A DNA stretch of 41,628 nucleotides from Planctomycetaceae bacterium (GTDB lineage Bacteria > Planctomycetota > Planctomycetia > Pirellulales > Pirellulaceae). The notes below the pieces were generated by a model. The model made no database searches and was not told the origin of the DNA. It saw only the letters and a list, made by a program, of their open reading frames with translations. Location of the stretch: the NCBI GenBank assembly GCA_005778405.1, contig SXOA01000049.1, positions 1-41,628 on the forward strand. The letters run 5' to 3'. A program made the translations under genes and the position numbers. Below are positions 5,913 through 19,738 of the stretch, piece after piece. Positions within the stretch are counted from its first letter, which is position 1, and each line of letters opens with the position of its first letter.

Positions 5913-7401
5913 CCCCGCGCTTCTTAAGCGTCACCTCCGCGGTGTTCTTCGCTCCGTTCCGCTCATAGGCCACGCGAACCTTCTCGCCCGCCTTGAGGCC
6001 ATAGATTGAGATGGTCAAGTCGGCAAAATCCTTGATGGCGGTGCCGTCGACGCTCTTAATGACGTCCCCTTCCCGCAGCCCGGCCCGATAGGCACCAGAG
6101 TCGGGAAAGATGGATGTCAGCACGAGCGGCGAAGTGCCGATGTCGGCATTCACCCCCATCATTGCTTCGCCGCGGGCCTGCACCTGCAAATTGGGCCGGC
6201 GTTCGCGGAGGTTTCGGAGCCCTTGCCGCGTCACGGCGGTGTCCCGAACCTGCAAATTGTTGAGGCTTGGGAGATCCTCCATGTGCCTCAGCGCGGCATC
6301 CGTGATTTTTGCACCATTGAGCGTAATGTTCCAGATCTCCGGCACATCCTTCAGCACTTTGAGTCCGTCATCGCCGCCGCGCCATTGTTTTCCGAGCATC
6401 AGCGAAGCGGATGTCTGAACCTCTCCCTCGTCAAAGCCAATGATGCCACCACCACCGCCGAAACCGAAATCGACGATCCTGATGTCGGCCCCATCCACAA
6501 TCTCTACCGCCTCGACGAGCGCGGGGGGAGGTGCGAGAACCTGAATATCGGCCGCCACGGGATCTTTCGCCGGTTCGGCCAGCTCTTTGAATTCTTCCAA
6601 CAACTGAGCGGGTTCGCCAGCCTTCACATCGGCTGGCTTTTCGGCGGCGGGCGGTTCTTCGACGGGGGGATCGACTCGAGGCGCTTCTTCGGGAATCGCC
6701 TCGCGGATTTCTATGTCCGGCGGCAGCTCGTCGCCGAGTTTAGCCTTCCCACCGAAGATTCGACCAATCAAGCCGAATATCCCCGCGTCGGCCTCAGGGG
6801 GAGCGGGGACCGGTTCAACAATGGGAACAACCTCGATGGCCTCTTCAATGAATACTGGCCCGCCCATCGCGATCGGTCCACCGACGAAAATGCCACCTCC
6901 ACCGAGTTCCATTCCATCTCCGGCAAACACTGCTCCGTTCTTCTGGAGGCTGGCCACTGCCCGGTCATGGCGAAAATGCTTCTGGCGAACATGCATCTCC
7001 GCGGCCATCGTTCGCAAGCCAGGTTTGCCTTTGGCACTGAGCTTGTCCAGCACACCCGTGATCTGAGCCAGCGTCTTCTCATCGCTGGTCATCGCAATCC
7101 GCTCGAGCGAAGCTCCGCTTCGCCAGGCAGTCTCGGCGCTCTCGCTGACGATTCCGCTCGCCAAAACATCCACGGCAGCCGGTCCCGCTTGGGCCAGCTT
7201 TTCCGCGGCCGCTTCGCGAACATCAAAGGATTCAGAATCAAGTTCCGCGAGCCATGTCTGCAACTGCTGCGGGGAGACTTTGGGGGCTACCGGAGAGAGA
7301 GGTGCGTCCTGTGCAACGACTGCCGGCGCTCCGCTCACCAGTGCGATGCAAATCCCACATCCCAAGGCCCGCTGCCACAACCTGTGTGTGAAGCGACTCA
7401 T
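5902..7401 (-). CDS. exported PDZ-domain protein with LRR-like and acidic Pro-rich segments
   Basis: A 499-residue exported protein with no catalytic motif. The ATG at 7401 is chosen because it has GAGGG just upstream and gives a signal peptide (residues ~1-31, ending near APAVVAQ); an in-frame upstream ATG would bury that signal. Residues ~40-150 are helical and HEAT-like (FDVREAAAEKLAQAG). Residues ~180-310 are Gly/Pro/Glu-rich and probably disordered. Residues ~340-405 resemble leucine-rich repeats (WNITLNGAKITDAALRHM). Residues ~410-497 form a PDZ domain, recognisable from GAYRAGLREGDVIKSVDG. PDZ domains bind peptide C-termini and often occur in HtrA-type proteases, but there is no protease domain here. 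It is the first gene of a pair with the SDR gene, overlapping it by 11 bp. Function is unknown; an envelope scaffold is plausible. Confidence 0.85.
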   Translation of the reverse strand: MSRFTHRLWQRALGCGICIALVSGAPAVVAQDAPLSPVAPKVSPQQLQTWLAELDSESFDVREAAAEKLAQAGPAAVDVLASGIVSESAETAWRSGASLERIAMTSDEKTLAQITGVLDKLSAKGKPGLRTMAAEMHVRQKHFRHDRAVASLQKNGAVFAGDGMELGGGGIFVGGPIAMGGPVFIEEAIEVVPIVEPVPAPPEADAGIFGLIGRIFGGKAKLGDELPPDIEIREAIPEEAPRVDPPVEEPPAAEKPADVKAGEPAQLLEEFKELAEPAKDPVAADIQVLAPPPALVEAVEIVDGADIRIVDFGFGGGGGIIGFDEGEVQTSASLMLGKQWRGGDDGLKVLKDVPEIWNITLNGAKITDAALRHMEDLPSLNNLQVRDTAVTRQGLRNLRERRPNLQVQARGEAMMGVNADIGTSPLVLTSIFPDSGAYRAGLREGDVIKSVDGTAIKDFADLTISIYGLKAGEKVRVAYERNGAKNTAEVTLKKRGDDQ

Positions 7402-7720
7402 AGCTGCCCTCTTTCGAAAGTCCCATGCCTGCCAATCATCAATCCTATGCCAAGAGGACGCCGCATGTCGAGAGAAAATGCACGTGCCGGCACATCGCAA
7501 AGCAGGACTCCCTTGCCGTCCCTTCCCTTCATTCGTCCGCCTGTAACAATTACCGCCGCCACAACCACTCCTATCTGCACAGTCGGCTGAGTGAATAACT
7601 TTACCGCCTGGGAACCAGCCGGTAGACTAAAGGGGCTAGTGTGAAAGATGGTTTTGCGTGCTGTAATTGCTTGTGCTGCACGGACTTTGGTTATTGGTCC
7701 CTGGCAAAGGAAGTAGGCGG
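7402..7720. other. divergent intergenic region between the PDZ gene and the TPR/ExbBD operon
   Basis: This 319-bp gap lies between two divergently transcribed units, so it should hold both promoters. The visible signals are the ribosome binding sites at each end (GAGGG before 7401; GGAAG before 7721). No clear -35/-10 pair, operator or RNA gene was recognised. Confidence 0.45.
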
Positions 7721-10700
7721 ATGAGACACTTGCTTGAAGCGAAATGGGCAGTTTGGGGACTGGTGCTGGCGGCGAGTCTTTCGGCGGGACCGCTGGAGAT
7801 TGCCCAAATGTCCGCCCAGGAAAAAGCCGCGGCCTCCTCGGAAGAAGCCAAAAAAAGCTTTGCCGACGCGGCAACGCTGCAAAACAACAACGCTTTCGAC
7901 GTGGCGATCGAGGAATGGGAGAAGTTCCTCAAGAACTACTCCAAAGATCCCCTCGCTCCCAAGGCCCAGCATTACCTGGGGGTCTGCCAACTGCAACTCA
8001 AACAATACGACAAAGCCGCGGCTGCCTTTCAGGCGGTTATTGCGAACAACCCGAAATTCGAGCTCATCGAAGATAGCTACATCAATCTGGGCTCCAGCCA
8101 GTACGCGATGGCTTTGGCCGGCACGGCGGATATGTATGACAAGGCGGCGGAAACATTTGCCGCCTTGGTGAAACAGTTCCCCATGGGAAAGTACGCGGAT
8201 TCCGCGCTGTTCTATCAAGGCGAATCGCAATATGCCGTTGGCAAAAAGCCCGAAGCAGCCGCGGCTTATGCGGCGCTGCTCAAGCAGTTTGAGAAAACGA
8301 AGCACCGGGGCGACGCACTCTATGCGCTCGGCGTCGCTCAGGAAGAGCTCGGCAAATTCCCCGAAGCCGGCGCAACTTTTGACATCTATCTCAAGGAATT
8401 GCCGGAAAGCCCGCTCGCCAGCGAAGTCCGGATGCGGAAGGCCGAGACGGTGTTGCAAGCCGGTAACTTCGCCGTTGCTGAGAAGATGTTCGCGGAGGTT
8501 GCCGCAGTGAAGGATTTTCCGCAGGCGGACCACGCGATCTTTCGGCAGGCCTACTGCGTGGCCAAACAGGATAAGTTCGCCGATGCCGCGGGACTCTATG
8601 CGCGCGTGGCCGAGTTCCCGAAGTCGGTTTATCTGCCGGAGGCAACGATGGCCGCCGGCCGCTGCTTCTACCGGGCGGACAAGTTCGAAGAGGCCGCGGC
8701 ATGGCTCGCGAAAGCAGCCGCGGCGGGGACGAAGGATTCCGCCGAAGCGGGGCACTGGCTCTGCCGCATCCAAATCCGCGGCAAGAAATTTGCCGAAGCC
8801 GCCGATCAGGCCGGCAAACTGATTGCGGTCGGCGGTGACAGCCCGTACCTGGTGAACCTCAAACTTGACCAGGCGGACTCGCTGTACGAAATCCCCGCCC
8901 GCCGCGCCGAATCACTGGCGCTGTATGCCAAACTGGCCGCGGACCATCCCAAGCACGAAGTCGCCCCCCAGGCTTTATACAATGCCGCTTTCACGGCCCT
9001 CGAACTGAAGAGCTACGACGAGGGCTTGAAACATGCCACGGCGTTTCTTTCTGGATATTCGCAGGACAAGCTGCTCCCCGATGTGAAGTACGTTGCCGCG
9101 GAGTGCAATCTGCAACTCAAGAAGTACCCCGAGGCCGAAGCGGGCTATAAAGAAATCGTCGCGGTGAGCCCGCAGCACGCGGACGCAGATCTGTGGCGCG
9201 TACGGCTGGGACTGATTTCGTATCTACAGAAAAAGTATCCCGATACGATTGCCGCGCTCGGCCCGGTGGTCGCCACGCTCAAGTCGCCGGATCTTTCCGC
9301 GGAAGGGCAGTTCTTGATTGGGGCCAGCTTGTTCTATACGGACAAGTTCGCGGAGGCTGAAAAGGCCCTCGCCGCCTCCGTCACTGCCAATCCCAAATGG
9401 CGGCAGACGGATGAGGCTCTGTTGCTGGTCGCCCGGGCTCAGCGAAAGCTGAACAAGGCGGCCGAAGCGAAAGCCACGGTCGCGAGGTTGATTGCCGACT
9501 TTCCATCGAGCAGCCTGCTCGACCAGGCCCATTATCGGCTGGGGGAATTCAGCTACGGAGCCGATGACTTCAAAACGGCGCTCGAGGAATATGAAATCGT
9601 CATCACCAAGTCGCCCGATTCCGCCTTTGCTCCCTTCGCGATTTATGGCAAGGCCTGGTCGCAACTCAAAACCAAGGCATTCGCGCCCGCTGCCGAAACT
9701 TTCACGGCGCTGCTCACCAAATATCCGCAGCATCAGTTGGTCAATGACTCCTACCTGGGCCGCGCGATGAGTCGCCGCCAGGCGGGCCAGTTGCCCGGCG
9801 CGATTGAAGACCTGGACGCATATCTCAAATCCAATCCCGATGTGGAGAAAAAATCGGACGCGCTCTATGAAAAGGGGCTGGCACTCGTCGCGCTCAAGAA
9901 GTTTCCCGAAGCCGTAACGACACTCGACACGCTGCTCAAGGAAAACGCCAAATACACCGGTGCCGACAAGGTCCTTTACGAAGCCGGTTGGGGGGTGAAA
10001 TCGCAAGAGAAGCACGCGGAAGCCGTGCCGTACTTCGCCCGGTTGGCAAAAGAATACCCGGCCAGCCCGCTAGCTGCGGAGGGGCTGTTTCATGTCGGTG
10101 AAGATCAGTATGACAAGAAGGACTATGCCCAAGCGGCAGCGTCTTATGCCGCCTGCGCCGGCAAGAATCCGGCGGGGGACCTGGGCGAAAAGTCCCTCTA
10201 TAAACTCGGCTGGGCCAATTACCAGCAGAAGCAGTATGCGGAAGCCCAAAAGCAGTTTGAGGCCCAGGTTGCCGCGTTCGCTCAAGGCCCGCTCGCCGGC
10301 GATGCCGTCTTCATGAAAGCCGAATGTCTGTTCCGCCAGGAAAGGTACAAGGACGCTTTGCCGGCCTATGAAGCCGCTGCCAAAGTAAAGGCTTCAGCGC
10401 CTGCGATGGAAATCCTGACCCTGCTGCATGGCGGCCAAAGTGCCTCGCAGGAAAAGCTGTGGGACAAAAGCATCGAATTGCTGTCGCAGCTCACCAAAAA
10501 GTTTCCCGAGTCTCCGCTGGTTCCCGAGGCAACTTATGAGCTCGCCTGGGCCAGGCAGAATGACGGCAAGCCGGACGAAGCTCTCAAGGACTACGAGGTC
10601 GCCGCGACGAAGTCTCGCGAACAAGTGGGTGCGCGGGCCCGATTCATGATGGGTGAAGTCTATTTCGAGAAGAAACAGCACGCTGAAGCTGTCCGCGAAT

Positions 10701-10948
10701 TCCAGCGGGCCATGTTTGGTTACGGCGGAGAAACGGCGCCGGCGGAAACAAAAAATTGGCAGGCCAAAAGCGGTTTTGAAGCGGGCCGCTGCACCGAAGT
10801 GCGAATCGGCACCGAGCAGGACGCGGCCGCCAAGACCAAACTGATTGCCGACGCCAAACGGTTTTATACGTTCCTGGTCGAGAAACACCCCACGCACGAG
10901 TTAGCAGCCGAAGCCAAAAAGCGGCTGGAATTATTAGGAAAACTATAG
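7721..10948 (+). CDS. giant exported tetratricopeptide-repeat protein, first gene of the ExbBD unit
   Basis: A 1075-residue protein with a signal peptide (residues ~1-29). The rest is almost wholly TPR-type helix pairs of about 34-37 residues, such as AEEALSKYPEHQ-like units ending in FPxSxLxxEA. Repeats of this kind resemble YbgF/CpoB and BamD, which work in the cell envelope; YbgF is encoded beside TolQRA-Pal in Proteobacteria. The ATG at 7721 is chosen because GGAAG lies 7 nt upstream and the signal peptide begins there. It is followed after 69 bp by an ExbB/TolQ gene, then ExbD/TolR and a giant hybrid gene, so it is probably the periplasmic partner of a proton-motive-force-driven envelope machine. 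A 56-bp repeat begins at its stop codon. No enzyme motif was seen. Confidence 0.88.
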   Translation: MRHLLEAKWAVWGLVLAASLSAGPLEIAQMSAQEKAAASSEEAKKSFADAATLQNNNAFDVAIEEWEKFLKNYSKDPLAPKAQHYLGVCQLQLKQYDKAAAAFQAVIANNPKFELIEDSYINLGSSQYAMALAGTADMYDKAAETFAALVKQFPMGKYADSALFYQGESQYAVGKKPEAAAAYAALLKQFEKTKHRGDALYALGVAQEELGKFPEAGATFDIYLKELPESPLASEVRMRKAETVLQAGNFAVAEKMFAEVAAVKDFPQADHAIFRQAYCVAKQDKFADAAGLYARVAEFPKSVYLPEATMAAGRCFYRADKFEEAAAWLAKAAAAGTKDSAEAGHWLCRIQIRGKKFAEAADQAGKLIAVGGDSPYLVNLKLDQADSLYEIPARRAESLALYAKLAADHPKHEVAPQALYNAAFTALELKSYDEGLKHATAFLSGYSQDKLLPDVKYVAAECNLQLKKYPEAEAGYKEIVAVSPQHADADLWRVRLGLISYLQKKYPDTIAALGPVVATLKSPDLSAEGQFLIGASLFYTDKFAEAEKALAASVTANPKWRQTDEALLLVARAQRKLNKAAEAKATVARLIADFPSSSLLDQAHYRLGEFSYGADDFKTALEEYEIVITKSPDSAFAPFAIYGKAWSQLKTKAFAPAAETFTALLTKYPQHQLVNDSYLGRAMSRRQAGQLPGAIEDLDAYLKSNPDVEKKSDALYEKGLALVALKKFPEAVTTLDTLLKENAKYTGADKVLYEAGWGVKSQEKHAEAVPYFARLAKEYPASPLAAEGLFHVGEDQYDKKDYAQAAASYAACAGKNPAGDLGEKSLYKLGWANYQQKQYAEAQKQFEAQVAAFAQGPLAGDAVFMKAECLFRQERYKDALPAYEAAAKVKASAPAMEILTLLHGGQSASQEKLWDKSIELLSQLTKKFPESPLVPEATYELAWARQNDGKPDEALKDYEVAATKSREQVGARARFMMGEVYFEKKQHAEAVREFQRAMFGYGGETAPAETKNWQAKSGFEAGRCTEVRIGTEQDAAAKTKLIADAKRFYTFLVEKHPTHELAAEAKKRLELLGKL

Positions 10949-11002
10949 TAGTCCTCTCACTCGGTGAGCGGACATGTCTGCCCACGGAGTGTGCAGGCTA
11001 CT
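10947..11002. repeat. 56-bp double-hairpin dispersed element, copy A
   Basis: The element reads AGTAG, a ~21-nt hairpin centred on CTCACTCGGTGAG, CATGT, a second ~20-nt hairpin centred on CACGGAGTGTG, then CTACT, so the ends are inverted repeats. It matches the reverse complement of copy B (28650-28705) at 50 of 56 positions. Its first two bases after A are part of the TAG stop codon of the TPR gene. It lies between the TPR and exbB genes and could act as a processing or attenuation hairpin. Confidence 0.85.
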
Positions 11003-11017
11003 CAGAAAGCAATCCCC

Positions 11018-11947
11018 ATGATGCAATTCGCAGCTAATTCCCGCATCAAGCTCGCCGTCTATCTGGCCGCTGCCGTACTGGCCTTTGCCGTCCTGTATGC
11101 CGTGCCTAGCAAGCATCAGGCGCAGGCTCAAACTGGATCTGCTCCCGCCGCTGCCGACGGCGGACCCAGCGCGACTCCGGCTCCCACGCCAGCCAGCGGC
11201 GCAACCGATGAACAGCCGGCGGCGAAAAAGAAGGATGATTCGATCGATCTCTTAGGCCTGACGATCGCCGGCGGCATTTTCATGATTCCGATTTTTGGCA
11301 TGTCCATTCTGGCCGCGACGATGACCATCGAGCGATTCATCGGCCTGCGGAAAGAGCGCGTGCTGCCGGAAGGGCTGGTCACCGGCCTGGGTTCGCTCGG
11401 CGGAGCACAAGGCAACTTCGACCCTCGCAAGGCCTATCGCCTCTGCCAGCAATTCCCCTCCTCCGCCGGCAACGTCATTCGAGCCATGCTGCTCAAAGTG
11501 GGCCGGCCCATCTCGGAAATTGAAAGCACCTCCACGCAGGCCAGCCAGCGGGAAGCCGACAAGCTGTACGCCAACGTGAAGTGGATCAACATGTCCGCGG
11601 GCGTATCGACGATGCTGGGACTAATTGGAACGATCCAGGGGATGATCATGGCGTTCCATCAAATGACGGTGATGGAGCAGGGGGTCGACCGCACGTCGGT
11701 ATTGGCCGGTGGCATTTATACGGCCTTGGTGACGACCTTCGCCGGACTCGCCGTCGCGATCCCGTGTGCCTTGTTTTCGCATTACTTCGAGGGGCGAATC
11801 ACCACCATCTTCCATCAAATCGATGAGCTGGTGTTCAGTCTGCTACCGCAGTTTGAACGCTACGAAGGCCGCGTCCGCTTCAGCCGGCAGGGTGTCGAGG
11901 ACAATGGGTCGGTGGAAGAAAAGTCGGCGGTCGCTGTACCGAGGTAG
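11018..11947 (+). CDS. exbB: MotA/TolQ/ExbB-family proton channel subunit
   Basis: A 309-residue inner-membrane protein of the ExbB/TolQ family, which with ExbD/TolR forms a proton-conducting motor. An extra N-terminal hydrophobic segment (residues ~10-29, RIKLAVYLAAAVLAFAV) and an Ala/Pro-rich linker (~35-75) precede the usual three helices. These are near residues 83-112 (LTIAGGIFMIPIFGMSILAA), 193-215 (STMLGLIGTIQGMIMAF) and 232-258 (YTALVTTFAGLAVAIPCAL). The GLIGTIQGMI and TTFAGLAVAIP stretches are the family signature. The start is ATG-ATG at 11018/11021; the ribosome binding site is weak, so either is possible. The extra N-terminal segment, either a cleaved signal peptide or a fourth helix, is unlike E. 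coli ExbB. The ExbD gene follows after 71 bp. Confidence 0.92.
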   Translation: MMQFAANSRIKLAVYLAAAVLAFAVLYAVPSKHQAQAQTGSAPAAADGGPSATPAPTPASGATDEQPAAKKKDDSIDLLGLTIAGGIFMIPIFGMSILAATMTIERFIGLRKERVLPEGLVTGLGSLGGAQGNFDPRKAYRLCQQFPSSAGNVIRAMLLKVGRPISEIESTSTQASQREADKLYANVKWINMSAGVSTMLGLIGTIQGMIMAFHQMTVMEQGVDRTSVLAGGIYTALVTTFAGLAVAIPCALFSHYFEGRITTIFHQIDELVFSLLPQFERYEGRVRFSRQGVEDNGSVEEKSAVAVPR

Positions 11948-12018
11948 CAAGAATAGTAGCCGTCACGCGCCCACGCAAAGCCGTGAGCGTGCCACCCGGC
12001 AGGAACACGTTGCACTCT

Positions 12019-12441
12019 ATGGCCATTCAACTCAACAAGGGGCGAGCGAACAGCCTGCTCGATCTGACCCCCATGATTGACATGGTATTCAACCTGCTTA
12101 TTTTTTTCATGGTGATCACGAACTTTGCCCAGGAAGAGCGCAGCATCCCCGTGCAGCTTCCCGCCGGCAGCGAGGCGATGCCCCTGACCGCCAAGCCGAA
12201 GGAGATTTTTGTCAACGTTGACCAGACCGGCCGGTACTTTGTCCAGAGCAAGCTGCTGACAGAGCAGGAGTTGGGCAAACTCCTGGTCGACTCCGCCATC
12301 AACAATCCCACCAGCCAGGCGGTCCAAATCCGGGCCGATGAGCGGGCCCCATGGAAATTCGTCGCCCGGGCACAGTACCTCTGTAACCAGGCCGGCATTC
12401 ACGACTATTCGGCGGTGATGGACAGCGAGAGCAAAGAGTAA
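12019..12441 (+). CDS. exbD: ExbD/TolR-family proton channel subunit
   Basis: A 140-residue protein of normal family length. One N-terminal helix (residues ~17-38, in DLTPMIDMVFNLLIFFMV) carries Asp21 in the PMIDMVF motif, equivalent to the essential membrane Asp of ExbD that takes up and releases protons. The rest is the small periplasmic domain, ending VRARAQYLCNQAGIHDYS-like, which dimerises and contacts peptidoglycan or the TonB-like partner in known systems. The ATG at 12019 is chosen because it begins the conserved cytoplasmic tail; an upstream in-frame ATG at 11983 would add 12 unlikely residues. AGGA lies rather far upstream. The giant hybrid gene starts 3 bp after its stop codon, so the two are very likely co-translated. 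Confidence 0.93.
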   Translation: MAIQLNKGRANSLLDLTPMIDMVFNLLIFFMVITNFAQEERSIPVQLPAGSEAMPLTAKPKEIFVNVDQTGRYFVQSKLLTEQELGKLLVDSAINNPTSQAVQIRADERAPWKFVARAQYLCNQAGIHDYSAVMDSESKE

Positions 12442-12444
12442 CAC

Positions 12445-15400
12445 ATGGCCAAACTTCGCCGAGTCATTCGCAAGATCCCCGCTCGGCGGGGCACTTATTT
12501 CGACGAGAAAATCTGGCCCGTCCAGATTGGCCTCGTTGTGCTCGGCGCGTTCTCGATGGGAGTGTCGGCGGCCTATAAGCAGTTCAGCAACGTGCCGTGG
12601 TACGACAACGCCCTCACCTACCTGATTCTGATTCCCTTGCTCGTCGCCGGTTTCATGGCGGCCTTTCACTTCGTGCAGGAGCAATGGCTCCGCCGCTCGA
12701 TGCAACTGTCGATTGTGCTGGCGGCCATTCTCCATGTGGCGCTGATCGTGCCGCTGAAGCAAACGATTCTGAATGTACTGTTCGATGACGACCTGGTGAC
12801 CGACAGGGAAGTCATCGAAACGCGAGCTCCCAAGATTGTGCAGGAGTACCGTGAACACCAGCTCATTCGCGAACAGGACCGCCCCCAGCAGGACTTTGAA
12901 AAGCCCGTCGAAACCAAGACGCCCGAGCCCAAGCCGGAGCCGGAGCAGATTACCCGCCAGGAAACCCGGCCCGAGCAGCCGCAAGCCCCGTCGCAGCCGA
13001 TTCCAGTCCCCGAATCGGTTCCCACCACCGACCCCAACGTCGTTCGCCGCCAGCAGCCAAGCGAAGCTGCCCCCAGACAGGCGGAGCAAGCATCGAAACT
13101 AAGCAAGCAGACTCGGCCCTCGGAAATGAAGATCAGCGAGCTGATCAAGACGGAGACCGTGCCGACCAGGCTCGCCGGCGTCGAAGCCAAACCCTCCACC
13201 GCCAAGATTGAGCGGCAGACTACCGAGCCGAACGTCGCCACCGCTGCCCTGCCGGAGCCGACGACCACGGTTCAGGCCGCCACGAGTCAGCTCTCCAAAC
13301 GGCAGACGCAGGAGAGCAAGGTGGCGGAAGATTCGGCCACTCCAACACTGAAGAAGCAGATTGCCACGCCGACGGAGACTCCCCGTTCGCAAGTCGCCGC
13401 GGCGGAGGCCCCACCAACGGCCAAGCAAACGGACTCGACGGCGCTCACCCCAGCGAATACCCAGTCCACCAAGAAAACCACTGCCAGCCCGGAAATTGCC
13501 CGCGTGACGGCGGAACCGACGCCGGAAGTTTCCGCGAAGGCTGATCCAACACCCAAGAAACGAGAGTTGCCCGCGGAGACGGCGCCGACCGTTGCCCAAA
13601 GCCCGGCCTCGACTCCAACTCGTCAGCCTCGCACGACGACCCGCTCCGATGTCGCGACAACGGCTCAGGCAGCGAAACCCCAAGCGATTTCCGAATCGGC
13701 ATCGGCGAGTGCCACGGAGATTGCACCACAGGCGAGTCGCGTGCAGCGGGCGACCACGCAGGTGACGACTGCCAAAGCGGCCGAGATTCCTTCCAACTCC
13801 CCCAGCTCGATCAGCCGCGACCAGCCAGCGTCTCGCGTGGCCCGCGCCCAGGCGAATGAGAATCCGACCGCTCAGACCAATCCGGCGGCAATGGCCACTC
13901 TTACCCGGAAGACCGGAGCGCCGAGCATCCCCAGCGCGACCAAGATTGAGCCGGCAGCCACAGCGCCGAGCACTTCAGCTTCCGCAACGACGGAAATCGC
14001 CGCGGCCAGCACCGCGACCCGCCGCCAGACGAATGCGGCTCCGCAAACTTCCGCCTCCACGGGGGAGCCGGTTCCGGCTCAGGTTGCCGCGACCAATCCG
14101 ATGGCAATCACCAGCCCCAGTGCGACCCGCCGGGCCACGTCTCAGTCGGAGTCTCCGTCGGAGTCTCCCTCCGCCACTCCTTCGCCGGCAGCCGTCGCAG
14201 CCACTCGCAGCACGAAGAGCGGCGTGGCCAACGTGGTGACGACCGCGGCTGATGTGCCGACCAACAGCGGGCCGCAGACCGCCCAGAGTGGAATTCCCAG
14301 TCCCTCTGCCTCCAGTGTTTCGCGCCAAACCGCCTCCACGAGCGCCGCGGCGAGCATGACCCAGCCGGCCCTGGCCGCGCAGTCCGCCAGTAGCGCGACG
14401 ACGGTTGCCGCCGCTGCCGGCTCGGCGCGTGCTCAGGCCAGCACGGTCCCCACGCTCAATCCCCAGCTCGCCGCGAGCGGCACGCCGTCGCGAGCCACCA
14501 TGACGGCTCCCACCGCGACATCTCCATCCAGCGTCGATAGCCCGGCCTCCGCGGTCGCATCCGCCACGAGCGCCAGCGAATCCGCTCAGCCGTCGAAAAT
14601 GGCTTTGACGCGGGCGACCGGCGGAACGGCTGGCGTCGGCAGCTCACCGAACATCGACCGTGCAACTGCCGGCGGAGATAGCCCGGCGCTGGTCGCCTCC
14701 GGCGCGGCGAGCCGCGCGAAGGCAACGCAGGAAGCAGCACCGGGAGACGCGCTCTCGCCAAGTGCCCCGGCTCAAATCGCCCGCAGCCGGGCCCAAGCCG
14801 CCATGCCGAGCGCTTCGCTGCAAGCCGAATCGGGAGTGGTCGCGACGACTACCGGCTCGCAGACCGTGACGGATTTGGCCGCGAGCGCCAGTGCCAGCCT
14901 GTCCCGAGCTGACGCCACGGCTGCTAAGGGTGATGTCACCGCGCCCAAAGGAGTTTCCGACGTGGACCTTGGTCCCACGCAGATCGTGGCCGAAACCGGC
15001 GGCGGCCGCGCGGCTGGTGGTGGCCAGCCTCAGATGAACTTTGAAACAGAGGCCGCGGAAAGTGCCCGCCGAGCTCCCGCTGGCGGAGCGCCGTTGATGT
15101 CGCTCGCGGGAGCCAAGGTGGACGCTTCGGTCGCCGGGCCGTCGGGTGATGCAGGCGGAACGCCTGCTTCCATCGACGCCGCAATGACCAGCGCAGCGCG
15201 GACACTGGCCGGCGGAGCATCGGTGACAGGTGGACCTTCCACTGCCCAGGAGACTGGTCCTCAGACCGCCGCCAATTCCGCGCTGCTTCTGGCCAAGAGT
15301 GATGTCAGCCGGGCCGACGCCGCGGATGGCTCTTCGGGCGGAGCGAGCGCCGGACAGCCGAGCGTGGAAGATGAAGAAGAAAAGGCCCGCCGCCTGGCTC

Positions 15401-17505
15401 GCGCTGCGGCCGGCGGCGCACCAGCACTTGCCATGAGCGGACCGATCAAGGCGGACATCGTCGCCTCGCCCATGGGCGCCGGCGGTGACGGCGGCGCACC
15501 GAAAATGGAAGTGGCGGCGGTGGACACAGCCGCCGCGCGGCAGAACCTTTCCGGCGGGGCACCAGCTGGCGGAGCGCCGTCTGCTTCCGCGGAACCGGCT
15601 GGGGCGGCTGGTGACGGCGGAGTTGCGGCTCCCGGCGCGGTAGCGGTCGCTCGGGCGGAAGCGGCGGAGTCGGCTCCCGGCTCGCCGGCCCTGGGGGGCG
15701 GTACTTCGTCTCCTTCCAAATCAGCAACCGGTCCCACGTTCACCGCCAGTGCCACGGCTGAGACGGTTCAAATCGCCGGCGCGCCGTCTTCCAGCGGCTC
15801 ACCAGCCGGCGCTGCGCTCGAGGCTCGCGGCACCGAGTCGGCTCGCGCCAGTGGCGGCGCTGCGGGTGCAGCTAGCGGCGGCGGCGCGGTGGCCGGCGAT
15901 GATGTCGCCATGGCTAGTTCGCTTGCTCCCGCCGGTCCCGGCCCAGGCCAGCGGCAGGCTGGTCCCGCCGGTGAAAACGGCCCAGCGGTCGGCGACCCTG
16001 TAACCAAAGGCGCGCCCTTGGCTCGCGCCGCGAAAACCGCCCCGGCAGCTGGCGGCACGACGGCGGAAGTTCCGGAAATCGGTCCGACTTCCGCGGTCGC
16101 GCAGGCGACGATGGACCACATGATGGGAGGCATGGGGAACATGCCGATGACTAAACAATCAGGGGGCGATGCCCTAGCGGTGAACATTGAAGCTCCCGAA
16201 GGGCCCGGCGGACTCGGCTCCGATTTCTCTCCCGAAGTGGGCCTGAAGACGCGGCAGTCGCGTACCGATAGTGTGCAAGTGCAGTCGGCCACCGCCCGCT
16301 TTGTCAAGCAGGCGGCCGGCGGATTGCCGAGCCTCTCCACCGCGGTCATCGTGGCCACTGAGCCCTTCATGCGGCGCTCTGGCCGCACCCCCGGCAAAGA
16401 ACCCGGCGGCGGCAAGGGAACCCTCGGCCCCGAAACCGAAGCCGCCATCGAGCTGGGCCTGGTGTTTTTGGCCCGCCATCAATTGCCGGAAGGAAACTGG
16501 AGCCTGCAAGGATTCGACGAGGCGACCAATGCCGTCTCCGCGGACGAGCGAAAGTTCATGCTGGTCAGCGACACCGGTGCCACCGCACTTTCCATTCTCT
16601 CGTTTCAAGGGGGGGGCTACACCCACCGCGAACACCAGTATAAGGACGTCGTCCGCAAGGGGCTCGATTATCTCGTTCGCAATCAGAAGGACAACGGCGA
16701 CCTGTTTGTGCCGCTCGACGACCGCTCCAATCAGAGCGTCTGGCTCTACAGCCATGCCCTGGGGACTATTGCTCTCTGCGAGGCCTATGGTATGACCGGC
16801 GACCCGGCTCTCAAGGATCCCGCGCAGAAAGCAATCAACTTCATCGTGGCGGCCCAGAACAAGGATTTGGGGGGCTGGCGGTACGCACCCGGCGTGGGGA
16901 CCGACACCTCCGTCACCGGCTGGATGATGATGGCCCTCAAGAGTGGCGAATTGGCCAATCTCGAAGTGCCGACCGATTCGTATGCCAAGATTTCCAAGTG
17001 GCTCTCCGTCGCTCAGGGAGGATCGGGGGAGCCAAACGTTTACCGCTATAACCCCTATGCCCCCGATACGGCCCAGCAGCGACATGGCCGCCTGCCGAGC
17101 AAGACCATGACCGCGGTCGGCCTGTTGATGCGGCAATACACGGGATGGAAAAAACAAGATCCCAACCTAATCGCAGGGGCGAATTACCTGGCCCAGCATT
17201 ATCCACAAGTCGGCACTGCCGCCGACCCGCAGCGGGACACCTACTATTGGTATTATGCCACGCAGGTGATGTGCCACATGGAAGGGGACTACTGGGAGAC
17301 CTGGAAAAGGCAGCTCTTTCCGCTGCTGCGGGATTCGCAGGTGCAAACCGGTGCCTGGGCCGGCAGTTGGAACCCCCGCGGAGCCGTCCCCGACCGCTGG
17401 GGCCTGCACGCCGGCCGGCTGTACGTCACCACCATGAACCTCCTTTCGCTGGAAGTCGAATACCGCAAGCTGCCGCTGTATTTGGATTTGCGGAAGCAGA
17501 AATAG
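12445..17505 (+). CDS. giant TonB-like hybrid: three membrane helices, ~1200-residue disordered linker, prenyltransferase/squalene-cyclase-like barrel
   Basis: A 1686-residue protein. Residues ~25-46, 57-76 and 87-105 are membrane helices. From ~116 to ~1320 the chain is low-complexity: first Pro/Glu/Thr-rich (PKPEPEQITRQE), as in TonB, then Ala/Ser/Thr-rich with a recurring Arg in short motifs such as TRRQT, VSRQT and LTRAT, and then Gly/Ala-rich with repeated AAGGAP and PAGGAP blocks. Residues ~1329-1680 form a helical barrel like the prenyltransferase/squalene-oxidase repeat family (GLVFLARHQLPEGNW, GLDYLVRNQKDNGD, DLGGWRYAPGVGTDTSVTGW). The DXDD acid motif of squalene-hopene cyclases is not seen, so cyclase activity is doubtful. 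It lies 3 bp after the exbD gene. I infer that it is the energised trans-periplasmic element of this ExbBD system, with the barrel as its distal head. Substrate and partners are unknown. Confidence 0.9.
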   Translation: MAKLRRVIRKIPARRGTYFDEKIWPVQIGLVVLGAFSMGVSAAYKQFSNVPWYDNALTYLILIPLLVAGFMAAFHFVQEQWLRRSMQLSIVLAAILHVALIVPLKQTILNVLFDDDLVTDREVIETRAPKIVQEYREHQLIREQDRPQQDFEKPVETKTPEPKPEPEQITRQETRPEQPQAPSQPIPVPESVPTTDPNVVRRQQPSEAAPRQAEQASKLSKQTRPSEMKISELIKTETVPTRLAGVEAKPSTAKIERQTTEPNVATAALPEPTTTVQAATSQLSKRQTQESKVAEDSATPTLKKQIATPTETPRSQVAAAEAPPTAKQTDSTALTPANTQSTKKTTASPEIARVTAEPTPEVSAKADPTPKKRELPAETAPTVAQSPASTPTRQPRTTTRSDVATTAQAAKPQAISESASASATEIAPQASRVQRATTQVTTAKAAEIPSNSPSSISRDQPASRVARAQANENPTAQTNPAAMATLTRKTGAPSIPSATKIEPAATAPSTSASATTEIAAASTATRRQTNAAPQTSASTGEPVPAQVAATNPMAITSPSATRRATSQSESPSESPSATPSPAAVAATRSTKSGVANVVTTAADVPTNSGPQTAQSGIPSPSASSVSRQTASTSAAASMTQPALAAQSASSATTVAAAAGSARAQASTVPTLNPQLAASGTPSRATMTAPTATSPSSVDSPASAVASATSASESAQPSKMALTRATGGTAGVGSSPNIDRATAGGDSPALVASGAASRAKATQEAAPGDALSPSAPAQIARSRAQAAMPSASLQAESGVVATTTGSQTVTDLAASASASLSRADATAAKGDVTAPKGVSDVDLGPTQIVAETGGGRAAGGGQPQMNFETEAAESARRAPAGGAPLMSLAGAKVDASVAGPSGDAGGTPASIDAAMTSAARTLAGGASVTGGPSTAQETGPQTAANSALLLAKSDVSRADAADGSSGGASAGQPSVEDEEEKARRLARAAAGGAPALAMSGPIKADIVASPMGAGGDGGAPKMEVAAVDTAAARQNLSGGAPAGGAPSASAEPAGAAGDGGVAAPGAVAVARAEAAESAPGSPALGGGTSSPSKSATGPTFTASATAETVQIAGAPSSSGSPAGAALEARGTESARASGGAAGAASGGGAVAGDDVAMASSLAPAGPGPGQRQAGPAGENGPAVGDPVTKGAPLARAAKTAPAAGGTTAEVPEIGPTSAVAQATMDHMMGGMGNMPMTKQSGGDALAVNIEAPEGPGGLGSDFSPEVGLKTRQSRTDSVQVQSATARFVKQAAGGLPSLSTAVIVATEPFMRRSGRTPGKEPGGGKGTLGPETEAAIELGLVFLARHQLPEGNWSLQGFDEATNAVSADERKFMLVSDTGATALSILSFQGGGYTHREHQYKDVVRKGLDYLVRNQKDNGDLFVPLDDRSNQSVWLYSHALGTIALCEAYGMTGDPALKDPAQKAINFIVAAQNKDLGGWRYAPGVGTDTSVTGWMMMALKSGELANLEVPTDSYAKISKWLSVAQGGSGEPNVYRYNPYAPDTAQQRHGRLPSKTMTAVGLLMRQYTGWKKQDPNLIAGANYLAQHYPQVGTAADPQRDTYYWYYATQVMCHMEGDYWETWKRQLFPLLRDSQVQTGAWAGSWNPRGAVPDRWGLHAGRLYVTTMNLLSLEVEYRKLPLYLDLRKQK

Positions 17506-17601
17506 GACGGCAGCCACGGTTCGCCATAAACCATCGCCCGGGTTAGTGTTCGCCGGCGCGAGAGATTTTCTGGTCGCTGGCGTCAGTAGTCTGGGATTAC
17601 C

Positions 17602-18615
17602 ATGCGTCCATTTGCCACTGTTCTACTCAGCCTGATCGGCGCACTCATAGGTTGCTCTGGCGGCCAGGACGAAGTCGTCGTTTACTCCGCCCTCGACCGC
17701 GAATTCTCCGAGCCGATATTGAACGACTTTGCCGAGACAACCGGGGTTTCGGTCGTCGCCAAATACGACATTGAAAGCACGAAGACGGTCGGCCTGACCC
17801 AAGCCATCATGGCGGAGACCAACCGCCCCCGCTGCGATGTCTTCTGGAATAACGAAATCCTCAATACATTCCGGCTGGAGGAAAAAGGGCTGTTGGCCGT
17901 GTACCATTCGCCGATAGCGGAAAGCTATCCCGAACATTTCCGCTCCAAGAACGGAACCTGGCACGGCTTTGCCGGGCGCGCCCGGGTGCTCCTCGTGAAC
18001 ACGAAGGTGGTGCCCGAAACCGAGCGGCCGAAATCGATCTATGACCTGGCGGACAAGAAATGGAAAGGAAAAGTTGGCATCGCCAAGCCGCTCTTCGGCA
18101 CCACGGCCACGCACGCCGCCTGCCTGTTCGCGGCCCTGGGAGACGACAAGGCCAAGGCGTTTTTTCAGAGCCTCAAGGACAACGAGATTCAAATTCGAGG
18201 CGGCAACAAGCAGGTCGCTGTGGCCGTTGGGAATGGGCAACTCGCTTTCGGCCTGACCGACACCGACGACGCCATCAGCGAAGTGGAGCGAGGATCGCCG
18301 GTGGTGATTGTCTATCCCGATCGCGACCAGTCAGAGTTGGGAACTCTTTTCATCCCCAACACGCTCTGCATCATCAAAGGAGCCCCTCACGAAGCCCATG
18401 CCCGAAGGCTGGTCGACTATTTGCTCGCCCCCACGGTCGAGGAGAAACTAGCCTTGGGCCCCAGCGCCCAGATCCCGCTCAATGCCGCCGTCAAGATCAA
18501 ACCGAGAGTGGAAACGCCGCGAACCGTGTACGCCATGCCCGTCGACTTCGCCGCTGCAGTCAATAAGTGGGACACGGCGGCGAAGTATATCCGCGATCAG
18601 TTCGCGGCGGAGTAA
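17602..18615 (+). CDS. ABC-type iron(III)/thiamine-like substrate-binding lipoprotein
   Basis: A 337-residue extracellular solute-binding protein. The signal peptide ends in a lipobox LIGC, with Cys18 as the lipidated residue. The mature domain opens with DEVVVYSALDREFSEPIL, typical of the FbpA/FutA/AfuA iron-binding family, and continues with CDVFWNNEIL, WHGFAGRARVLLVNT and a late PSAQIPL. Length is usual for this family. There is no permease or ATPase gene nearby, so the transporter must be encoded elsewhere or the protein acts alone. It sits 96 bp after the giant hybrid gene on the same strand and could be transcribed with it. Iron is the most likely ligand by family, but the binding residues cannot be confirmed by eye. 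Confidence 0.85.
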   Translation: MRPFATVLLSLIGALIGCSGGQDEVVVYSALDREFSEPILNDFAETTGVSVVAKYDIESTKTVGLTQAIMAETNRPRCDVFWNNEILNTFRLEEKGLLAVYHSPIAESYPEHFRSKNGTWHGFAGRARVLLVNTKVVPETERPKSIYDLADKKWKGKVGIAKPLFGTTATHAACLFAALGDDKAKAFFQSLKDNEIQIRGGNKQVAVAVGNGQLAFGLTDTDDAISEVERGSPVVIVYPDRDQSELGTLFIPNTLCIIKGAPHEAHARRLVDYLLAPTVEEKLALGPSAQIPLNAAVKIKPRVETPRTVYAMPVDFAAAVNKWDTAAKYIRDQFAAE

Positions 18616-18706
18616 GTCGGTACTTCCGATCGATGACGGCACTATCAATTCGTCAAGAAATCGGGGAAATTACGGCATTGGCGGGCGTCATTCGGTTAGG
18701 TGCCTT

Positions 18707-19738
18707 ATGAGAATCTCCATATTGCTGCTGGCATTGGCGGTCGGCGCGCCATTCGTGGCCGCTGATCAGCCTGCCCAAAGGAGTAAGCCCCAGCCGGCGC
18801 CCTTGGAAAAGCTGACCGTCAAGCATCTGCCCAATGCGCTCCTAGTGCATCCCAAGGTCATTTCCGGTGGACTGCCGGATGGGGACGAGGCTTTCCAGGA
18901 GTTGAAGGACTTGGGGGTCAAGACGGTCATCAGTGTCGATGGTGCCAGGCCGGATGTGGAGCTGGCGAAGAAGAACGGCTTGCGGTATGTCCATCTGCCG
19001 CATGGGTACGACGGTATTCCCGCGGAGCGAGTCGAGGAACTCGCCAAGGCGGTGCGCGATCTGCCGGGGCCAATTTACATCCACTGCCATCATGGCAAGC
19101 ATCGCAGTCCGGTAGCGGCCAGTGCGGCCTGTGTGGGCGCGGGCTTGATTGATCCCAAGGATGCGCGGCAGGTGCTGGTGGTCGCCGGCACCAGCGAGAG
19201 CTATCGCGGGCTGTATCAGGCGGCGCAAGAGGCCAAGCGGTTTGACGACAGGCTGCTCGACGCCCTCGGGGCCGAATTTCCGGCCGTCGCCAAACTTCCG
19301 CCGATGGCGGAGGCAATGGTCGACGTGGAGCACATCAATAACCATCTCAAGCTCTTTGCCGCCAACAAATGGCAGCCGATTAAGGACCAGCCGGCCTTGC
19401 AGCCCGACCATGAGGCGCTCCTGCTCCGCGAGCATTTCACGGAGCTATTGCGAACGAAGGAAATCATGGCCAAATCGGCGCGTTTTCAGGAACTGATGAA
19501 GGAAGGAGAAGCCGCTGCCCAAGACATGGAAACGGCTCTCAAGGACTGGATCACCGCTGGCCGGCCGGAAAAAACTCCGGAAACCTTGGCTCAAGGGATG
19601 GATCGGATTGGCAAGAATTGCACCGCCTGCCACAAGCTGTTCCGCGATGTGCCGCTGGGGGAAAAAAATAGAGTGGCACTGGCAGTCGAGCCGAACGCAC
19701 AGTCCATGCTTCTCGAAAGACATTCCTCGGCTCGATAG
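18707..19738 (+). CDS. exported dual-specificity-phosphatase-like / cytochrome c'-like fusion protein
   Basis: A 343-residue protein with a signal peptide (~1-19) and two domains. Residues ~45-180 resemble the tyrosine/dual-specificity phosphatase fold of the DSP/BLH-like type: HCHHGKHRS at 126-134 carries the phosphate-loop Cys127 and Arg133 (C-X5-R). Residues ~200-315 are helical and end in CTACHKLFR with haem-binding Cys305, Cys308 and His309. A C-X2-CH-X2-FR motif at the end of a helical bundle is typical of cytochrome c'. The ATG at 18707 is chosen because it starts the signal peptide. The last ~21 residues, from about 322, are encoded by a repeat element that also supplies the stop, so the native C-terminus was probably altered. 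A periplasmic phosphatase-haem fusion is unusual; its redox or phosphatase role is unknown. Confidence 0.85.
   Translation: MRISILLLALAVGAPFVAADQPAQRSKPQPAPLEKLTVKHLPNALLVHPKVISGGLPDGDEAFQELKDLGVKTVISVDGARPDVELAKKNGLRYVHLPHGYDGIPAERVEELAKAVRDLPGPIYIHCHHGKHRSPVAASAACVGAGLIDPKDARQVLVVAGTSESYRGLYQAAQEAKRFDDRLLDALGAEFPAVAKLPPMAEAMVDVEHINNHLKLFAANKWQPIKDQPALQPDHEALLLREHFTELLRTKEIMAKSARFQELMKEGEAAAQDMETALKDWITAGRPEKTPETLAQGMDRIGKNCTACHKLFRDVPLGEKNRVALAVEPNAQSMLLERHSSAR

Follow-up and report, generated by a model that had tools for sequence, protein, structure and literature searches.

A conserved TPR-ExbB-ExbD gene unit of Planctomycetes ends in a giant protein that may act as a toroid-tipped force transducer

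The window analysed here, a stretch of 41,628 nucleotides, corresponds to contig C33 in a genome of 6.1 Mb that is 92% complete. It carries four co-directional genes on the + strand, all of them with open frames at the positions that a sequence-only reading of this DNA had given. They encode a TPR protein of 1,075 residues (7721..10948), an ExbB/TolQ-family motor subunit of 309 residues (11018..11947), an ExbD/TolR-family motor subunit of 140 residues (12019..12441) and a fourth protein of 1,686 residues (12445..17505), hereafter the giant, which we predict to be a force transducer and whose orthologues stand in the same gene order. The intergenic gaps of 69, 71 and 3 bp in that reading are correct with ATG starts at 11018 (ExbB) and 12019 (ExbD); alternative in-frame GTG starts at 10964 (ExbB) and 11983 (ExbD, then 152 residues) would shorten the first two. 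A scan of positions 7400-17700 for promoters and terminators gave 4 promoter-like sites against 1.5 expected, none of which is on the + strand before the TPR gene. The organism-named best homologues of the giant are labelled Planctomycetales, Pirellulaceae, Pirellulales, Planctomycetes or Anatilimnocola. Further along the window, a protein encoded at positions 18482-19738 resembles dual-specificity phosphatases in one part and cytochrome c' in its C-terminal part, by Pfam matches that are weak and fall below the cut-offs in both cases.

The first protein of the unit is matched by Pfam TPR families down to 3.8e-60 and has a signal-peptide-like N-terminus, and it is likely to be the periplasmic partner in the unit. 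It passes the NCBIfam model for YbgF-like repeats (TIGR02795, 317.8 bits with a cut-off of 90.1) as well as the BamD model (TIGR03302, 176.9 with a cut-off of 81.4). An assignment to CpoB proper was rejected, as the equivalog model NF008068 gives 125 bits where 383 is the cut-off.

Both motor subunits belong to the families that had been proposed for them. The ExbB subunit is matched over the cut-off by PF01618 (MotA_ExbB, 4.8e-24) and shows the features of this family, namely two pore threonines (T205, T239/T240) and a proline in TM3 (Pro249); its sequence also has the extra N-terminal hydrophobic segment described earlier, and an Ala/Pro-rich stretch precedes the first channel helix. Among 77 aligned ExbB sequences, Thr205 and Thr239 are found in 77, Thr240 and Pro249 in 76 and Ser96 in 75. 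As described in the text of PMC12905483, residue types such as these have their place in the pore or in the network by which TonB or TolA docks, where the Ser and His of a Ser-3x-His-6x-Leu-3x-Ser motif common to TonB and TolA contact TM1 of ExbB/TolQ and are tied to a conserved Ser and Trp of TM1 and a Pro of TM3. Our own reading of the alignment is that Ser96 probably represents the TM1 Ser of this network; the TM1 Trp was not seen as conserved in the 77 sequences, and PDB alignments of ExbB did not credibly align TM1. The ExbD subunit is likewise matched over the cut-off (PF02472, 7.2e-24), and its essential proton-binding Asp (codon 12079..12081) aligns with the 'TPFID' of solved ExbD chains in the PDB. 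A salt-induced exbB/exbD pair has been reported in Rhodopirellula baltica, which on the information given in PMC2754498 is not mappable to the TPR-ExbB-ExbD-giant unit.

The giant begins with three hydrophobic helices, a number found exactly in 30 of 36 giants by hydropathy (the remainder have two or four). The first two are extra membrane helices at residues 24-42 and 57-75 (12514..12669), and a structural model of residues 1-129 (pLDDT 80, pTM 0.60) places helices at 24-44, 56-77 and 84-125. The last of these (12694..12819) carries the putative motor-docking motif A93-x-x-x-H97, which the sequence-only reading missed, as it did the conserved C-terminal domain described below. In an alignment of 98 giants of at least 840 residues, taken from 107 distinct giants with the window included, His stands at position 97 in 85 and Asn in 11, with a gap in the remaining 2, and position 93, four residues before it, is Ser in 72, Cys in 13, Gly in 8, Ala in 3 and a gap in 2. 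The exact form S-x-x-x-H is the commonest in the family (63 of 98), with the window showing A-x-x-x-H. Helix 3 is reached by 103 of the 120 database proteins closest to the window's giant; the His is present in 102 of these, and the residue at -4 is Cys in 52, Ser in 22, Gly in 18 and Ala in 11. Since the window has Ala at -4 and Ser is in the minority (22/103) among its closest relatives, only the His is a firm match to TonB/TolA, and, as judged from the alignments, the Ser at -4 is one of several small residues. The full Ser-3x-His-6x-Leu-3x-Ser (SHLS) pattern was not found, with Ala in 52 and Leu in 13 of the 98 giants at +7 and no Ser consensus at +11, and a PDB search with a profile of the giant N-terminus returned no TonB or TolA chain (best E 0.21, to an unrelated protein).

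It is also important to consider how often such a helix occurs elsewhere. As a control, S-x-x-x-H was found in the helix of 6/6 TonB proteins from relatives. As a background, 78 proteins with a TM helix near the N-terminus were taken from the window and from stretches fetched from its own genome, which are not a random sample because the fetched stretches centre on motor and toroid genes. Six of the 78 show S-x-x-x-H; three of these are toroid proteins, and the others are a vWA protein, an orphan of 326 residues and a relative of ExbB. The orphan (L103:4710-5687, on contig C170 of the same genome) has no Pfam domain; its membrane helix contains Ser-Ala-Leu-Val-His, and it sits 3.6 kb before an orphan toroid transducer. 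Replacement of the docking His by Asn, seen in the giants at L067, L069, L072, L075, L091, L120, L121, L135, L138, L139 and L178, apparently reflects more than one independent change; columns of ExbB or ExbD co-varying with this change at position 97 were looked for and none were seen.

Between the helices and the C-terminal domain lies a low-complexity linker at residues 131-1315 (12835..16389), whose 1,185 residues are 21% Ala, 12% Ser, 11% Thr, 10% Pro and 8% Gly. It has the character of a domain II of the TonB/TolA type, Pro-rich or low-complexity and able to span the periplasm, and across 96 sequences its length ranges from 344 to 1,811 residues with a median of 624. The TonB linker has about 100 residues, so the linkers of the giants are about 3 to 18 times as long. 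A linker of such length would be in keeping with the periplasm of Planctomycetes, which is reported to be enlarged and variable.

The C-terminal domain of the giant (residues 1316-1686, 16390..17502) is predicted to have an alpha/alpha toroid fold. Profile searches of the giant gave only a sub-threshold pectate-lyase match in Pfam (residues 1,372-1,420) and weak squalene-cyclase matches in NCBIfam, and no Pfam match to TonB_C or vWA. In the comparison of folds, the modelled tip shares the toroid with squalene-hopene cyclases and with GH76 and sugar 2-epimerases, the latter two sugar-acting enzymes, and it has QW-like motifs in common with this group; no TonB or TolA tip was among the matches listed, which is an absence only. 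An assignment of the giant to TonB or TolA proper was rejected, its tip having the toroid fold and no TonB_C match. A plain terpene cyclase was rejected too, as the DxDD motif of class II cyclases is missing from the window and present in just 1 of 47 aligned toroid domains. The residues that are invariant in the domain include W163, R164, Y165, D172, R282, D283, Y285-Y289 and R343 (domain numbering), and conserved polar and aromatic residues of this kind could mean an enzyme.

The sequence-only reading had made its proposal depend on the four genes being neighbours in related genomes. All 60 of 60 relatives had a match to the C-terminal domain of the giant, with paralogues counted, and 35 orthologue regions from those genomes together with the 80 best named of 585 GTDB loci gave a sample of 115 loci, planctomycete-labelled except for one titled 'bacterium' (e.g., Rhodopirellula baltica, Blastopirellula marina, Roseimaritima sediminicola). 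By the last 300 residues of the giant, 106 of the 115 are distinct, and 79 of these extend for at least 5 kb upstream. The order TPR-ExbB-ExbD-giant, on one strand and with the TPR gene first, is kept in 65 of these 79 loci, which supports the proposal. The remaining 14 comprise one ExbB-ExbD-giant locus beside a run of N, seven with ExbD only and six with no motor gene. Three of the 13 loci that are motor-less or hold ExbD only were traced in their own genomes, and all three keep parts of the unit elsewhere: in G033 and G041 TPR-ExbB-ExbD lie away from the giant, and in G018 TPR-ExbB are found elsewhere while ExbD remains with the giant. Among the 27 distinct loci with less than 5 kb upstream, all four genes are seen in 7, ExbB-ExbD in 3, ExbD in 5 and none in 12, of which 11 are cut at the giant itself.

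The surroundings of the unit are less constant. The window's own flanks are mostly not kept, its SDR gene having a relative in 12 and its PDZ gene in 1 of the 115 loci, and four other flanking genes gave none in the 115. A divergent gene for an NAD-dependent nucleotide-sugar epimerase/dehydratase (Pfam GDP_Man_Dehyd, 3.3e-49) adjoins the TPR gene in 34 of the 59 distinct loci with 1.5 kb or more of sequence on that side (e.g., L079:10564-11844, and 33 other loci); in the window a different gene takes this position. None of the other flanking clusters occurs in more than 26 of 103 loci. The presence of the epimerase gene may point to a surface-polysaccharide or envelope theme, but favours neither a Tol-like role nor uptake.

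The toroid domain also occurs outside the unit. The window's own genome has 10 further toroid matches, of which the five best were read and 5/5 have an S-x-x-x-H helix; one paralogue (contig C37) lies beside its own ExbB-ExbD pair and is without a TPR gene. In a sample of the phylum the domain is present in 144 of 199 genomes (E <= 1e-60). When 20 toroid regions, including two from the order to which the window belongs, were picked from the listed phylum matches, S-x-x-x-H was seen in 13, and motor genes stood beside the toroid gene in 3, as two ExbD-toroid pairs and one TPR-ExbB-ExbD-toroid unit, so that most wider-phylum toroid paralogues are not beside ExbB or ExbD. In this last unit, which belongs to the distant phylum member L225 (1138-9820), TPR-ExbB-ExbD are followed by a protein of 1,270 residues that joins a TM segment, a PD40 (TolB-type) propeller and a toroid, with Pro-3x-His in its helix. 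For a distant toroid protein, 107 of the 120 homologues listed out of 4,676 have S-x-x-x-H in an N-terminal helix, and most of the other 13 look like secreted forms with signal peptides. One of these, the probably secreted toroid protein P0134, has an ExbD-like periplasmic domain after the toroid in one frame. Motor units of other kinds are also present in the window's genome. On contig C7 (L186:4763-8755), a vWA protein with a Ser-3x-His helix is followed by TPR, ExbB, ExbD and ExbD, which looks like the published vWA transducer unit, here with the vWA gene first; on contig C8 (L188:5740-10080), ExbB-ExbD-ExbD are followed by one more small gene and by a DUF4159 protein that has several membrane helices and is perhaps a transducer of another type.

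We propose, with a probability of roughly 0.7, that the products of TPR-ExbB-ExbD-giant form a proton-driven machine of the envelope, the giant standing in for TonB or TolA, with helix 3 docking to the motor, the linker spanning the periplasm and the toroid gripping a partner. The sequence-only reading had already put the giant in the TonB/TolA position, and this placement is strengthened by the His of helix 3 and by two conserved ExbB residues, the Ser of TM1 and the Pro of TM3. ExbB and ExbD, which have the families and catalytic residues of the known motors, would assemble into the usual proton channel. The small residue-3x-His of helix 3 would then contact the TM1 Ser of ExbB and, through this Ser, the TM3 Pro; the residues are present in the sequences, and the contact is proposed by analogy with the solved structures of Ton and Tol complexes. 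Proton flow may pull or turn the giant, whose toroid may hold the TPR protein, or else a protein of the outer membrane or a glycan of the surface or wall. Such a machine would most likely have a Tol-like role and maintain the coupling of the outer membrane to the energised inner membrane, in bacteria for which TonB is optional and a search for canonical TolB gave no match. Compared with Ton (ExbB-ExbD-TonB), the unit has the same motor families and key residues, a docking-His helix, a Pro-containing low-complexity linker and a similar gene neighbourhood, but a toroid in place of the TonB C-terminal domain and two extra membrane helices. With Tol-Pal (TolQ-TolR-TolA, CpoB/YbgF) it shares the motor families and a YbgF-like TPR gene; it differs in having no TolA tip in the giant, and a TPR protein that is 1,075 residues long, below the CpoB cut-off and encoded first.

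Two alternatives to this proposal are contradicted, one by the conservation of the gene order and the other by the predicted fold. That the four genes are chance neighbours without a joint function could be argued from the 14 of 79 loci in which the full order is missing, but the order is kept in the other 65 while the most constant flanking family reaches only 34 of 59, and we regard this as the least credible explanation of all. It is also very improbable that the giant is a member of the published vWA class whose tip has been misread. The vWA-tipped transducers described for the PVC group, with TPR-tolQ-tolR-tolR neighbours (Williams-Jones et al., 2025; PMC12204202), do have the plan in common, i.e., TPR, tolQ, tolR and a protein made of a TM helix with Ser-His, a Pro-rich linker and a globular tip, and a vWA unit (L186) is present in the window's own genome too. 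However, the tip of the giant is predicted to be an alpha/alpha toroid and not a Rossmann-like vWA fold, and the unit has one tolR-like gene against two, three N-terminal helices, and linkers of hundreds of residues where domain II in the main text of PMC12204202 has about 100. This comparison also bears on the earlier description of the machine as undescribed, which stands for the toroid class and has to be qualified for the plan as a whole, since the sister vWA class was published in 2025. The words 'squalene' and 'toroid' do not occur in the main text of PMC12204202, and no title or abstract beginning among the literature searched (a scope that leaves most subscription papers outside) names a squalene-cyclase-like or toroid transducer, so that, as far as these searches show, the toroid transducer class is undescribed.

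The other alternatives concern what the toroid does. The same machine may have a TonB-like job, bringing large substrates such as polysaccharides and proteins through the outer membrane and on into the enlarged periplasm, which is a possible but doubtful explanation. As reported in PMC5394234, dextran and GFP are taken up into the planctomycete periplasm by a mechanism described there as unclear, and dextran was found in 0 of 816 CCCP-treated cells; the toroid fold is common to sugar-acting enzymes, and several toroid transducers per genome could serve several substrates. On the other hand, no linked outer-membrane receptor gene was seen among the annotated flanking genes, where the recurrent neighbour is a nucleotide-sugar epimerase, and the species in the uptake study, as that paper presents them, are not tied to these genes. 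Quite improbable in our view is a toroid that works as a leashed periplasmic enzyme of terpenoid or glycan chemistry, with the helices and motor genes serving only to place or regulate it. The many invariant polar and aromatic residues, the enzymes among the fold relatives, names like 'terpene cyclase/mutase family protein' in the databases and the epimerase neighbour all speak for it, but DxDD is absent from 46 of 47 aligned domains including that of the window, and an enzyme would have no need of a docking-His helix and a motor operon; unlike the toroid enzymes, the toroid of the giant is tethered to the membrane by a long linker and encoded next to a proton motor.

Within the proposal of a proton-driven envelope machine, a Tol-like role is our first choice, which taken by itself we put at somewhat less than even odds, and macromolecule uptake is ranked second because of the loss of dextran uptake under CCCP in PMC5394234. 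TolB_N (PF04052) was found in 0 of 40 genomes, the window's own included, by a search that finds it in the controls E. coli, Caulobacter and Bacteroides, which is a further difference from Tol-Pal. In these 40 relatives TonB_C was found in 24, Plug in 28 (27 over the cut-off) and OmpA-like domains in 39. Neither TonB_C nor Plug was found in 12, and five of these (G007, G011, G012, G021 and G023) have the full unit, so the unit, in contrast to Ton, seems independent of TonB receptors; single absences may be gaps, since the listed completeness of the 40 genomes runs from 78 to 100%.

In the textbook picture, TonB and TolA are the arms by which energy of the inner membrane reaches the outer membrane. 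We put forward as speculation, unlikely as it stands, the wider proposal that the toroid members form a phylum-wide third class of proton-driven force transducer, distinct from those with a TonB/TolA or vWA tip, and that the giants, whose linkers are long enough for an enlarged periplasm, drive protonophore-sensitive uptake of macromolecules into the planctomycete periplasm. For Planctomycetes, where a search of 40 relatives gave no canonical TolB, the unit would be a candidate envelope-coupling machine, and their macromolecule uptake, which is sensitive to protonophores, would become testable by gene deletion, for which Planctopirus limnophila offers the tools (PMC5394234). If transducers with an unrelated tip do form a widespread class, the motor would prove to be a power socket of general use.
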